58,248 nucleotides of DNA from Sulfurovum sp. (GTDB lineage: Bacteria; Campylobacterota; Campylobacteria; Campylobacterales; Sulfurovaceae): contig JALUYL010000048.1 in NCBI GenBank assembly GCA_027012955.1, positions 1 to 58,248 of the forward strand, written 5' to 3'. Positions within the stretch are counted from its first letter, which is position 1. Every line of letters begins with the position of its first letter. The notes under the pieces are model-generated. The model worked only from the letters and a program-made list of their open reading frames with translations. It had not been told where the DNA came from and did no database searches. Positions 4,972 through 57,393 of this stretch are shown piece by piece. The translations under genes and the position numbers were made by a program.

Positions 4972-6234
4972 ATGGTAAAAATAGGAATACTCGGTGTCGG
5001 TACTGTAGGTGCTTCTGTAGCAAAGATATTAGAAGAAAATGCAGACATCATTGAAGCACGTGCGGGTAAGAAGATAGTTGCTAAGTCTGGTGTGGTGAAA
5101 AACCTTGCTAAAGACAGAGGCGTTTCTATCAAGCTATCTGACAATCCATTAGATGTGGTAAGTGACCCAGAGATAGACATCGTAGTAGAGCTTATGGGTG
5201 GGGTTGAAGAGCCATATGCCTTAGTAAAGAAAGCACTTGAAAATGGCAAAGCAGTTGTTACTGCAAACAAAGCACTTCTAGCCTACCACCGTTACGAACT
5301 CCAAGAGATAGCTGGAGACATACCTCTTATGTATGAAGCAAGTACGGCTGGAGGTATCCCTATTATCGGTGCTTTGCGCACGGGACTTTCTGCGAATCAT
5401 ATAGAGTCTATTCAAGGTATTATGAATGGTACGTGTAACTATATGCTTACTAACATGATAAACAATGGTGCAAAATATGAAGAGATACTCAAAGAGTCTC
5501 AAGAACTAGGCTACGCAGAAGCTGACCCTACGTTTGATGTGGGTGGGTTTGATGCGTCACACAAGCTACTCATCTTGGCAAGTATCGCGTATGGCATAGA
5601 TGCAAAACCAGAGGATATTCTCATAGAGGGGATAGAAAACATCACAAGTACCGATGTAGATTTTGCCAAAGAGTTCGGTTATGAGATTAAGTCTTTAGGT
5701 ATCGCTAAAAAAGTAGGTAATGGCGTAGAACTACGTGTACACGCAACGATGATACCTGCAGACTCTATGATAGCCAAAGTTGATGGTGTGATGAACGCTG
5801 TGACTGTAGTAGGTGACCGTGTAGGGGAGACCATGTATTATGGACCAGGTGCTGGTGGAGATGCCACAGCTTCTGCTGTTATCTCTGATATCGTAGACAT
5901 CGTACGTGGAAACCAAGGACCGATGCTAGGTTATAAAAAGGGCTTAGAGTCAGGACTTAAACTTCTACCTAAAGAAGACATCGTGACACAGTACTACCTT
6001 AGACTTGAGGTTGCAGATGAGAGTGGTGTATTAGCCAGTATCACATCAACACTTGGTGAGTTCGGCATTTCTATAGAAGCTATGTTACAAAAGCCTTCTA
6101 GCACTTTTGATAGAGCAAAACTTCTCTTCACTACGCACAAGTGTAAAGAGAGCGAGATGCAAGAGGCTATGACTGCACTTGGCAAGCTTGATGTTGTTCA
6201 TGGTGAGATTGCTATGATGAGGATTGAGAAGTAG
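4972..6234 (+). CDS. hom: Homoserine dehydrogenase
   Basis: 420 aa. It reduces aspartate semialdehyde to homoserine, the branch point to threonine and methionine. The N-terminal Rossmann motif GILGVGTVGASVAKIL, the catalytic segment ANKALLAYH, GIMNGTCNYML and the GYAEADPTFDVGGFDASHK motif are all present. The C-terminal ~75 residues (YYLRLEVADESGVLASITSTL) are an ACT domain, implying feedback control by threonine. The monofunctional, ACT-containing length is standard. It follows the aminotransferase gene by 2 nt, so the two are cotranscribed. Confidence 0.96.
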   Translation: MVKIGILGVGTVGASVAKILEENADIIEARAGKKIVAKSGVVKNLAKDRGVSIKLSDNPLDVVSDPEIDIVVELMGGVEEPYALVKKALENGKAVVTANKALLAYHRYELQEIAGDIPLMYEASTAGGIPIIGALRTGLSANHIESIQGIMNGTCNYMLTNMINNGAKYEEILKESQELGYAEADPTFDVGGFDASHKLLILASIAYGIDAKPEDILIEGIENITSTDVDFAKEFGYEIKSLGIAKKVGNGVELRVHATMIPADSMIAKVDGVMNAVTVVGDRVGETMYYGPGAGGDATASAVISDIVDIVRGNQGPMLGYKKGLESGLKLLPKEDIVTQYYLRLEVADESGVLASITSTLGEFGISIEAMLQKPSSTFDRAKLLFTTHKCKESEMQEAMTALGKLDVVHGEIAMMRIEK

Positions 6235-54397: not shown

Positions 54398-54625
54398 GTG
54401 CAATTAACAATAAATGTAAAAGATGCTGTGGCTGACAAAGTATTGTATCTACTTGAAAGCTTAAAGTCTGATATCCAAATCATTAAAAAGCAACCAACAT
54501 CCCCAATAGAGATTGACACAATCTCTAAAGATGACTCAGATTATGATGATGTATTAAAGGCGAGAAAAGAGAGGGCTAATCATCCTGAAGCGTATGTTTC
54601 TCTCAATGAAGTGAATTGGGGATAA
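54398..54625 (+). CDS. Antitoxin of a RelE/ParE-type module
   Basis: 75 aa, GTG start with an AAAGGAG site; TATAAT at 54366-54371 promotes it. The N-terminal MQLTINVKDAVADKVLYLLESL looks like a short DNA-binding or dimer strand-helix, and the rest is an acidic, disordered toxin-binding tail (DTISKDDSDYDDVLKARKERANHPEAYVSLNEVNW). It is next to a ParE-like gene, so the antitoxin assignment is mostly contextual. Confidence 0.75.
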   Translation: MQLTINVKDAVADKVLYLLESLKSDIQIIKKQPTSPIEIDTISKDDSDYDDVLKARKERANHPEAYVSLNEVNWG

Positions 54626-54627
54626 GC

Positions 54628-54891
54628 TTGTATCGTCTCAAACTACATAAAAGAGTTGTCAAATTTATAGAAAGTAGAAATCCTAAAGATAAACTGAGAA
54701 TAAAAGAGAAGTTCTTGTATCTGCAAAATAATCCCTATCCTTCCAATCCTCAAACGGATACAAAAAATATGTCGAACAGCACTAACGGATTTAGGCTGAG
54801 AGTTGGAAATTACAGATTTTTATACGATGTTGTCGAAGATGAGTTAATTATCTACATTGAAAAAGCGGATAATCGTGGAGATATTTACTAA
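54628..54891 (+). CDS. RelE/ParE-type toxin
   Basis: About 87 aa from TTG 54628 with GGGGAT as ribosome site; TTG 54616 within the antitoxin is the other option. The pattern LHKRVVKFIESRNPKDKLRIKEKFLYLQNNPYP ... RLRVGNYRFLYDVVEDELIIYIEKADNRGDIY is the RelE fold, with conserved RVGNYRFLYDV and the C-terminal HR.D-like NRGDIY. It probably cleaves mRNA at the ribosome or poisons gyrase; sequence does not tell which. Confidence 0.85.
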   Translation: MYRLKLHKRVVKFIESRNPKDKLRIKEKFLYLQNNPYPSNPQTDTKNMSNSTNGFRLRVGNYRFLYDVVEDELIIYIEKADNRGDIY

Positions 54892-54945
54892 GATAAACTG
54901 GAAAAAACTTTAAAAGAGTATCTGAACCTTGTTATTTAAAACTTT

Positions 54946-55491
54946 TTAGCGAAACCTTTTAAAAACCCGTTCAAAATCTAAACTAACATTACAAGTCGTT
55001 TCTTCAAAGTCGTAACGCTCTTGTAAAAAATCACCCTCTTTATCATATTTTGAGTCTTTAATTTTGTAGACTTTGGCTCTTAGGTCATCGGGGTAGACTA
55101 AAATGTAGTAGCTGACTTTTTCTTTTTCATAGATCTCAAATTTATACTTTTCGTCTCTCTTGGCTGTAGATTTTGAGATAATCTCAACAACAATCTCTGG
55201 TGCTTTAGTAAGGTAGCTTTCATTGGTCTCACCACAAGTAAGCACAATGTCAGGTCTTAAAACAGTGTCGTCACTTACCTTATAGTCAATCTCCCCTAAA
55301 ACTTCACATTTGGTACACTCTTCTATCTGCTCTCTTAGATTATAGATTATTTCACTTGCTAAACTCTGATGCTTTATCATAGGGGCAGGTGCCATAGAAA
55401 GAGGAATCCCATCTATAAGCTCCCACTTTCCTTCCCACTCTTTGTAGTCAGCATAAGTGTAGTATTCGATAGCTTGTGCTAATGGCGACAT
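54946..55491 (-). CDS. Uma2-family (DUF820) putative nuclease
   Basis: 181 aa. YADYKEWEGKWELIDGIPLSMAPAP at the N-terminus and LRPDIVLTCGE...APEIVVEIISKSTAKRDEKYKFEIYEKEKVSYYILVYP are the Uma2 core, which has the PD-(D/E)xK nuclease fold (D in RPDIV, E in VVEI, K in STAKRDEK). The function of the family is poorly known; it is abundant in cyanobacteria and some other bacteria. It is isolated on the minus strand between two TA modules. Confidence 0.85.
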   Translation of the reverse strand: MSPLAQAIEYYTYADYKEWEGKWELIDGIPLSMAPAPMIKHQSLASEIIYNLREQIEECTKCEVLGEIDYKVSDDTVLRPDIVLTCGETNESYLTKAPEIVVEIISKSTAKRDEKYKFEIYEKEKVSYYILVYPDDLRAKVYKIKDSKYDKEGDFLQERYDFEETTCNVSLDFERVFKRFR

Positions 55492-55554
55492 GAGTTTCCC
55501 CTTTGATTTTAGATAACTATATTATAGCACAAAGTATGATTGGGCTTATTTATA

Positions 55555-55588
55555 GGAAAAACTATAAAAAACGACACAACCTGTCGTT
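55555..55588 (+). repeat. ACGACA-dyad repeat, copy A
   Basis: GGAAAAACTATAAAAA then the dyad AACGACA-CAACC-TGTCGTT. A second copy, with CCACC in the loop and 11 extra nt, lies at 56687-56730 in the same orientation. They stand outside the two 122-bp repeats, giving A-REP-HigBA-REP-A'. Confidence 0.65.
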
Positions 55589-55602
55589 ATGTGGGTTTTT
55601 TG

Positions 55603-55724
55603 TTTTTCTCGTTCCCATCCGTCCTCGGTGGTAACGCATACTCCAATATGAACTAAAAAATAACGCTCTAGCTATACAAATACTCATATGTATTCCCACG
55701 CAGGAGCGATGGGAACGAGAGTAA
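55603..55724. repeat. 122-bp CTCGTTCCC repeat, left copy flanking HigBA
   Basis: Identical over 122 bp to 56558-56679. Ends CTCGTTCCCATC and GATGGGAACGAG are perfect inverted repeats. This is the CTCGTTCCCA type of REP/BIME-like palindrome. It contains no ORF, but its right end holds the ATG of the 49-aa ORF. Confidence 0.9.
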
Positions 55725-55858
55725 CACTTTTAAATAAAGAGGAAGAAAAATTTATAGTAAAACTACAACAGCTTATTGCTACCAGGATAGAACAAATGAT
55801 GCACTCTGCCGATGAGCTATTGACACTATTATCATATTGTGATAATATATCTATATGA
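55709..55858 (+). CDS. 49-aa ORF coupled to higB
   Basis: Not in the track. It begins in the repeat (GGAGCGATG, ribosome site CAGGAGCG) and reads EEEKFIVKLQQLIATRIEQM, ending LLTLLSYCDNISI with an ATGA overlap onto higB. It looks like the C-terminal part of a longer protein truncated by the repeat insertion, or a small leader. Amphipathic helix content is high. Function unknown. Confidence 0.45.
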   Translation: MGTRVTLLNKEEEKFIVKLQQLIATRIEQMMHSADELLTLLSYCDNISI

Positions 55859-56136
55859 TTAAATCGTTCAAATGCAAAGAAGCCGAAAAAATATATTGGG
55901 GCAAAAGCAGCAGAAAGCTTCCCGTAGACATACATAAGCGTGCCAAAATAAAATTGGATATGCTGGAAGCGGCACAGGAAAAATTGGATCTGAAATCACC
56001 GCCGTCAAATCATCTCGAAGAGCTCAAAGGTGATTATAACGGTTTTTTGAGCATTCGAATTAACAAACAGTTTCGTTTGGTATTCCGTTTTGAAAACGGC
56101 AATGCCTACGATGTACATATTATTGACTATCACTAA
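55855..56136 (+). CDS. higB: HigB-type toxin
   Basis: 93 aa: MIKSFKCKEAEKIYWGKSSRKLP, then LDMLEAAQEKLDLKSPPSNHLEELKGDYNGFLSIRINKQFRLVFRF. This is the HigB/RelE fold with the conserved LxG...SIRINxQxRxxF motif, and the C-terminal HIIDYH tail. It is a ribosome-dependent mRNA interferase. It precedes the antitoxin (toxin-first order typical of higBA) and is followed by it after 11 nt. The unit lies between perfect 122-bp direct repeats. Confidence 0.9.
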   Translation: MIKSFKCKEAEKIYWGKSSRKLPVDIHKRAKIKLDMLEAAQEKLDLKSPPSNHLEELKGDYNGFLSIRINKQFRLVFRFENGNAYDVHIIDYH

Positions 56137-56147
56137 AGGATATAAGC

Positions 56148-56444
56148 ATGACAGCAGTTAGACCATCCACGCATCCGGGAATCATCCTAAAAGAAGAATT
56201 TGCAGAGCCACTAGAGCTTACGCAGGCAAAAATGGCAGAAGACCTTGGAGTAGGCATCAAAACACTGAGTGAACTCTACAATGAAAAAAGAGGTATTTCG
56301 GCACTGATGGCACTTAAACTTGCACGCTATTTTGGCACCACTCCACAATTCTGGATGAATCTGCAGGACAATTATGACCTTTATCAGGCATATCAGAAAA
56401 CTGCACACAAAATCAACAGTGTGCCTGTACTTGAAACAGCCTAA
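56148..56444 (+). CDS. higA: HigA-type antitoxin, XRE HTH
   Basis: 98 aa. RPSTHPGIILKEEFAEPLELTQAKMAEDLGVGIKTLSELYNEKRGISALMALKLARYFGTTPQFWMNLQDNYDL is the HigA family signature: an N-terminal HPG motif and an XRE-type helix-turn-helix that also represses the operon. It neutralises HigB. An AAAGGATATAAGC site decides the start. Confidence 0.92.
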   Translation: MTAVRPSTHPGIILKEEFAEPLELTQAKMAEDLGVGIKTLSELYNEKRGISALMALKLARYFGTTPQFWMNLQDNYDLYQAYQKTAHKINSVPVLETA

Positions 56445-56557
56445 CTTCGAGATACCAACTCCAAATCTTCAAAGCCTATGGTGTTGGACTCTTCTTTTTT
56501 GTTGTGTATTTTAGTAGTAGATTTTTAAAGCTCATCAAACGTATCCTCGACCATTTT
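56445..56557. other. Gene-free stretch after higA
   Basis: 113 nt before the right-hand 122-bp repeat, the first part of the 328-nt gap up to 56773. I see no ORF, no strong hairpin and no promoter here; a T-run (CCATTTTTTTTT) meets the repeat. The rest of the gap is the 122-bp repeat and the A' dyad. Confidence 0.5.
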
Positions 56558-56679
56558 TTTTTCTCGTTCCCATCCGTCCTCGGTGGTAACGCATACTCCA
56601 ATATGAACTAAAAAATAACGCTCTAGCTATACAAATACTCATATGTATTCCCACGCAGGAGCGATGGGAACGAGAGTAA
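56558..56679. repeat. 122-bp CTCGTTCCC repeat, right copy flanking HigBA
   Basis: Base-for-base the same as 55603-55724 and in the same orientation. The two copies bracket an 833-bp block with the 49-aa ORF tail, higB and higA. Perfect identity implies recent duplication or ongoing recombination between them. Confidence 0.9.
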
Positions 56680-56686
56680 TTTACAA

Positions 56687-56730
56687 GAAAAACTATAAAA
56701 ACTTTTCAAAAACGACACCACCTGTCGTTT
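56687..56730 (+). promoter_or_regulatory. ACGACA-dyad repeat, copy A', at a promoter
   Basis: GAAAAACTATAAAAAC then AAACGACA-CCACC-TGTCGTTT, 8 nt upstream of CATACT (56739-56744). The dyad overlaps the -35 region of the 206-aa gene, so it may be an operator. Confidence 0.5.
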
Positions 56731-56772: not shown

Positions 56773-57393
56773 ATGTTACCATTAGTATTAGGCGGTATCG
56801 CACTTGCGGCGGTGGGGTATGGGGTGAAAGAGTTTTGTGAGAGTGAAGGATGTCCTTCAGACGAGAACGATACTTCTTCTCGACCTTCCCCAAATGAAAG
56901 ATTTGATAGCTTTCAAAAAAGTAGAGTTGCATTGCACGGGGAAGAGCTTCAAAGACTGAGGGTATTACTTATGAAGGTCACACATACTGATGAAAAGTAT
57001 GTGCTAGATGATGCAGTAAGTTTCCAAAAAGAGAAGCTTAAAGAGGGTGTGCTCTATGAAGATGTTGAGCTTTATATGGGTATGTGTAAAGCATCTATCG
57101 CAAAGGCTACACGACTGGCAGATGACTACATAGTCAATATCGAGACCATGCTTTATTTCTCCTGTGACTATGCGGACTACGGAAAGCCTGAAAAGAAAAT
57201 CATCAAAAAAGCGTACAAGCTCATAAATGCGACACAAAAGCTACTCGTTTTACCGTTACTAGACAAAGATGATAGGTTAAACATAGACATTATTAAGCCA
57301 CTAAAAGCATACGAATATTTTTTAGAAAAATACAAAGTGCATAGTGCTACATCTCCTTTTTCACTGATGTCACACAACGCATTGTTAAAGTAA
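56773..57393 (+). CDS. Membrane-anchored protein of unknown function
   Basis: 206 aa with an AAGGAG site. The N-terminus LPLVLGGIALAAVGYGVKEF is one membrane-associated helix, followed by a Ser/Pro/Asp-rich linker with CESEGCPSDEND and a helical domain (EELQRLRVLLMKVT, EDVELYMGMCKASIAKATRLADDYI, KAYKLINATQKLLVLPLLD). No family recognised. It begins a small cluster with a zinc-ribbon protein and a TerB-like protein. Expression is probably regulated through the upstream dyad. Confidence 0.6.
   Translation: MLPLVLGGIALAAVGYGVKEFCESEGCPSDENDTSSRPSPNERFDSFQKSRVALHGEELQRLRVLLMKVTHTDEKYVLDDAVSFQKEKLKEGVLYEDVELYMGMCKASIAKATRLADDYIVNIETMLYFSCDYADYGKPEKKIIKKAYKLINATQKLLVLPLLDKDDRLNIDIIKPLKAYEYFLEKYKVHSATSPFSLMSHNALLK

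Follow-up and report, generated by a model that had tools for sequence, protein, structure and literature searches.

Two perfect copies of a 122-bp repeat enclose a toxin-antitoxin (TA) pair in a Sulfurovum genome, raising the question of whether the enclosed segment is a cassette in its own right or a product of rearrangement around the repeats. The window analysed here is a whole contig of 58,248 bp (C48), belonging to a 1.72-Mb MAG of 110 contigs that is 76% complete.

The repeats as members of a REPIN/RAYT family

The repeats lie at 55603-55724 and 56558-56679 and are 100% identical over 122 bp (126 bp with one mismatch), confirming with exact coordinates the identical copies around higBA described in the original prediction. 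A perfect repeat of this length cannot have arisen by chance within 58 kb. The terminal inverted repeats that had been noted in them are present as well, and each copy folds as a hairpin-forming palindrome (MFE -18.2, z = -3.8, with 0 of 200 shuffles equally stable). Each consists of two inverted REP hairpins of about 33 nt (CTCG-TTCCCA..TGGGAA-TGCAT) around a short spacer, about 112 bp from end to end: in the left copy the REPs are at 55608-55640 (+) and 55687-55719 (-), and in the right copy at 56563-56595 (+) and 56642-56674 (-), the elements as wholes being assigned to neither strand. This architecture identifies the 122-bp repeats as REPINs, a class of miniature elements that are non-autonomous and consist of an inverted pair of REP hairpins.

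A scan of the genome for the repeat, proposed along with the original prediction, found a family dispersed in the MAG itself and in congeners. Elements or fragments of this type are present on contigs C88, C50, C14, C82, C19 and C47, the full-length ones being 69-79% identical, and pairs of plus- and minus-strand REPs spanning about 112 bp recur on C88, C50 and C14 and also in congeners. The two REPINs of the window are 100% identical to each other, while the next full copy in the genome is about 79% identical. Among 60 relatives, 23 have REPIN matches (E <= 0.001). The copy number is low, with fewer than about 10 places in the Sulfurovum MAG. One congener (G022:C72, locus L031, 1501-1963) carries two REPINs in the same orientation, 78% identical and about 0.45 kb apart, in what appears to be the tail of a coding region and without TA genes; among the matches listed, no other full REPINs besides those of the window were noticed as a close direct pair.

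Like the elements of the REPIN/RAYT (TnpA-REP) system (PMC3116915, PMC2817692, PMC3733652), those of the window are inverted REP doublets of about 110 bp that would form single-strand hairpins, are dispersed in the genome, and have cognate RAYT genes flanked by the same REPs. GTAG and CGTC tags define two super-families, both of which were reported in Sulfurovum sp. NBC37-1 (PMC3733652). Unlike the described elements, the window family is tagged with CTCG (kept in 83 of 101 REP hits), has a low copy number, and includes two identical copies that bracket a TA module at gene-truncation junctions. As the tag is neither GTAG nor CGTC, the assignment to REPINs rests on the architecture and the RAYT, outside both super-families.

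The cognate transposase gene was first seen, exactly between inverted copies of the window-type REP, in two other Sulfurovum genomes (G018:C59 and G034:C1). Relatives of this 177-aa RAYT were found in 34 of the 78 Sulfurovum genomes searched, many of them decayed. In nearly all of the closest full-length genes, inverted REPs lie about 16-21 bp beyond the stop codon and 55-105 bp ahead of the start, while at about 70% identity or less flanking REPs are often missing. REPs are concentrated at these genes, with 37 hits in 92 kb around RAYT loci versus 7 in 149 kb of control loci around other genes. The protein retains the motifs NHxH and YIHxNPVKRG, and its sole PDB match is E. coli TnpA-REP (4er8, E 1.1e-3); the Pfam Y1_Tnp score is below cut-off (19.6 versus 23 bits). 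A CTCG-tagged REPIN/RAYT family is documented in Sulfurovum, its transposase genes identified through their flanking REPs, and the REPINs of the window descend from this family of IS200/IS605-like HUH transposases. The original prediction of a REP-type element served by a transposase in trans is borne out by these congeners. The RAYT/TnpA-REP search that it called for thus succeeded in part: a cognate RAYT flanked by the same REP occurs in congeners but had no match in the MAG itself, which lacks about a quarter of the genome.

Y1_Tnp genes on C13, C70 and C84 of the MAG were considered as the cognate RAYT and rejected, having no REP core motif nearby and no close match to the 177-aa protein. 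A separate Sulfurovum genome (G097) has 31 matches to Y1_Tnp (IS200-like transposase), far above its relatives.

The enclosed genes

The enclosed TA genes are both intact, with higB (93 aa, 55855..56136, +; PF05015, 1e-21; PDB 6f8s, 3e-15, and HigB 4mct, 6e-8) followed by higA, encoding an HTH antitoxin (98 aa, 56148..56444, +; TIGR02607, 2e-27). The promoter/operator region ahead of them (55820..55854, +; TTGACA ... TATCATATTGTGATA) is conserved with other Sulfurovum higBA loci. Based on these matches, the pair is predicted to be a HigBA toxin-antitoxin module with ordinary proteins. Like type II HigBA modules it is toxin-first, with a HigB-like toxin, a HigA HTH antitoxin and an inverted-repeat promoter; unlike other such modules it has a REPIN bracket, its sole oddity.

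The original prediction placed a 49-aa ORF together with higB and higA in the cassette. While the two TA genes stand, the ORF is what remains of a truncated hipA, its C-terminal tail (55722..55858, +), which runs into the higBA promoter, and it is no TA component. A 46-residue query (55718-55855) matches the C-termini of 428-459-residue ORFs of congeners outside the window (E 1.2e-5 in G087, 1.4e-4 in G074 and 4.7e-4 in G061), and the protein hit in G087 is HipA (HipA_C 9e-46, Couple_hipA 6e-18).

The nearest relatives of the higBA pair, in G002 (83%), G009 (84%) and G077 (87%, over partial length), have in common with the window only the DNA from 55820 to 56440 (to 56392 in G077) and no REPs are found around them. 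In G002 and G009 the pair has a def-like gene on one side and a comM-like gene on the other. None of 80 higB relatives in named genomes is bracketed by REPINs, and no second copy of the REPIN-higBA-REPIN unit was found in the MAG or the genus. The spacers on either side of higBA have no convincing match elsewhere, a search of plasmid DNA gave no match, and phage hits are to distant HigB proteins only, at most 50% identical.

Further afield, a 69%-identical higB homologue adjoins a REP in Sulfuricurvum sp. (DZBC01000205.1, locus L209, near 2850 and 3680), where higBA is enclosed by a pair of GGGGACAGG-type repeats of 60 bp that are 98% identical and look like RAYT/TIRtron ends. In Holophagae (L227) and Marinobacter (L257), higBA relatives are flanked by attC-like direct repeats of integron type. 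Given these cases, higBA modules recur between direct repeats of differing kinds. Like the TA cassettes of integrons, the window pair lies between direct, palindromic repeats, but by inspection its REPIN ends read 5' GTT..AAC 3', in the opposite sense to attC (RYYYAAC..GTTRRRY), and both the repeat ends and the REP hairpins differ from the attC consensus.

WYL relics and the surrounding island

Outside the REPINs, two ACGACA dyads in the same orientation, also part of the original prediction, are indeed present at 55571-55588 and 56712-56729, within longer stretches that are 84-91% similar. They are unrelated to the REP family and lie outside the repeat system. The 206-aa gene that follows the second dyad in the window has homologues preceded by a dyad of the form ACGACA-N5-TGTCG(T) in the promoter position, with a TATACT-like box shortly after it; this dyad stands directly behind an intact WYL-regulator gene on C79 of the MAG and in G090 and G087, with a weaker form in G074. 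Three intact loci supplied a profile spanning the 3' end of the WYL gene and the dyad; run on the window, it found exactly three clear sites (54890-54930, 55558-55588 and 56681-56730; next best 4.7 bits; best of 10 shuffles 8.0). Relic 1 (54890..54930, +; DKLEKTLKEYLNL; nhmmer 21.1 bits, E 1e-5) is the 3' end of a WYL-regulator gene. Relic 2, or A (55548..55588, +; 17.5 bits), is a WYL 3'-end remnant with an orphan ACGACA-CAACC-TGTCGT operator dyad that, judged against intact promoters, has lost its -10 box. Relic 3, or A' (56679..56730, +; 20.4 bits), is a WYL 3'-end remnant with the dyad ACGACA-CCACC-TGTCGT; it belongs to the promoter that precedes the 206-aa gene and is conserved upstream of homologues on C79 and in G090, G087 and G074. 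As the profile matches at both places, A and A' are what is left of lost WYL genes, namely their ends, together with the operators. They share a derived base (CTAT for CTAG/TTAG), and therefore appear to be copies of one another.

Two other explanations of the dyads were rejected. They are not REP-linked or att-like sites, given that a similar dyad precedes the 206-aa homologues and, with TTATACT, an 81-aa DUF4258-like gene on C47 (the fourth copy in the MAG). Nor do they belong to the Uma2 gene, the five closest Uma2 relatives being without an upstream dyad. The 206-aa gene (56773..57393, +) is the first of a WYL-type operon, with homologues behind intact WYL genes on C79 and in G087 and G090; in the genome search its protein matched three congeners and one paralogue in the MAG, and the related-locus scan with it gave no match. 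The dyad promoter (with TATACT), placed between a WYL gene and a small-protein gene that heads an operon, was seen on C79 (L153, 9171-10614) and C47 (L327), at 56712 in the window, and at G087:C37 and G090:C83. Such dyad-promoter operons carry dynamin-like GTPases and HerA/DUF87-like ATPases and are a candidate WYL-controlled, defence-like regulon.

The relics belong to a larger accessory region. In 27 of the 28 relatives with enough sequence to be informative, the gene immediately after panC is a convergent one for an FtsI-like penicillin-binding protein (a name denoting sequence resemblance only), a larger empty site. In the window, panC is followed by a small ORF with a ParE-like toxin gene (54398..54891, +; PF05016 ParE_toxin 6e-5, above cut-off), relic 1, a Uma2-family gene (54946..55491, -; PF05685, 7e-24), A, the left REPIN, the hipA tail, higBA, the right REPIN and A'; the 206-aa gene, a Zn-ribbon gene and TerB come next, and the contig ends 1.6 kb past the right REPIN. 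The ftsI-like gene of the MAG lies on C47; after it come a YefM-YoeB pair, the DUF4258-like gene behind the same dyad promoter, and dynamin-like GTPases. The simplest inference is that the ends of C48 and C47 are one accessory island split by assembly. Beside the YefM-YoeB pair, C47 (L327, reverse-oriented 5640-5672) also carries a decayed REPIN core without outer arms.

Origin of the bracket

At its right edge each REPIN meets a plus-strand gene of which only the 3' tail is left: homology to hipA starts at that edge of the left REPIN, and WYL homology at A' starts at that edge of the right one. Each REPIN thus abuts an amputated gene tail, which places the pair at deletion junctions. While this anatomy is read directly from the DNA, how and in what order the events took place is inferred. 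We lean, with some reserve, towards the REPINs marking deletion junctions in a zone of toxin-antitoxin and defence-gene turnover, with the bracket a by-product. The REPINs would have inserted in, or been joined to, genes of a fast-changing island with a turnover of TA modules and WYL-controlled operons. Most of hipA and a WYL gene may then have been lost with the other DNA between REPIN copies, through recombination by RecA or cleavage by RAYT, and a recent duplication or gene conversion could have left two identical REPINs around an ordinary higBA that chanced to survive. Against this, the pre-deletion state is seen in no genome, and since relics 2 and 3 appear to be copies of one another an additional duplication is needed. 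With no cognate RAYT found in the incomplete MAG, recent activity in the lineage is no more than a possibility, and a possible assembly error at a 122-bp repeat in a fragmented MAG is a further point against deletion.

The self-contained A-REP-cassette-REP-A unit of the original prediction gained no support: the A dyads are conserved promoters with WYL relics, the left part is a hipA tail, the spacers are unmatched elsewhere in such a unit, and the closest higBA relatives are without REPINs. A gain of higBA by homologous recombination between an incoming REPIN-higBA and a resident REPIN, reversibly converting A-REPIN-A' into A-REPIN-higBA-REPIN-A', nevertheless fits the order and orientation of the elements and the presence of higBA at unrelated sites in the genus, as at the def-like/comM-like site. 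Incoming and resident REPINs would normally differ, however, as do the other copies in the MAG (about 79% or less), yet the two here are identical; the cassette holds a hipA tail cut at a REPIN edge, and no donor with a REPIN-bracketed higBA was found. We regard such a gain as unlikely.

More doubtful is an assembly artefact, in which the higBA segment was wrongly joined to another REPIN locus. A 122-bp repeat can exceed assembly k-mers, the MAG is split into 110 contigs, and the contig end is close to the right REPIN, but the unique flanks fit together as a single island, the other end of which lies on C47. A composite REPIN transposon is, in our view, slightly less credible still. Its ends would be the outer REPs (55608, +, and 56674, -), with a RAYT in trans moving the 1.07-kb segment and higBA as cargo, a design like that of REP-RAYT-REP units; the outer REPs have the orientation of those flanking RAYT genes, and the Sulfuricurvum higBA also adjoins a REP and lies between near-identical 60-bp repeats. 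Against such a transposon, no second copy of the unit was found in the MAG or genus, the MAG yielded no cognate RAYT, the nearest higBA relatives lack REPs, and the G022 pair, 78% identical and without TA genes, is the only other close direct full-REPIN pair among the matches listed. That REPIN pairs in general are composite elements, their outer REPs recognised by a RAYT in trans, capturing and moving TA genes as composite IS transposons do, is the least probable proposal and a very improbable one, although if true it would revise the picture of REPINs as miniature elements devoid of cargo.

The locus is best read as a repeat-associated genome rearrangement around a common TA pair, and not as a new mobile element. 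In an island of TA and dynamin/WYL defence-like genes, REPIN copies coincide with gene truncation points, making them candidate hot spots for deletion and reshuffling. The arrangement would also permit the loss of higBA by recombination between the repeats that the original prediction foresaw. With 122 bp of perfect homology, RecA could delete higBA cleanly and leave one REPIN, and, owing to the lability of the antitoxin, the toxin would likely punish cells that lose the module, selecting against its loss.
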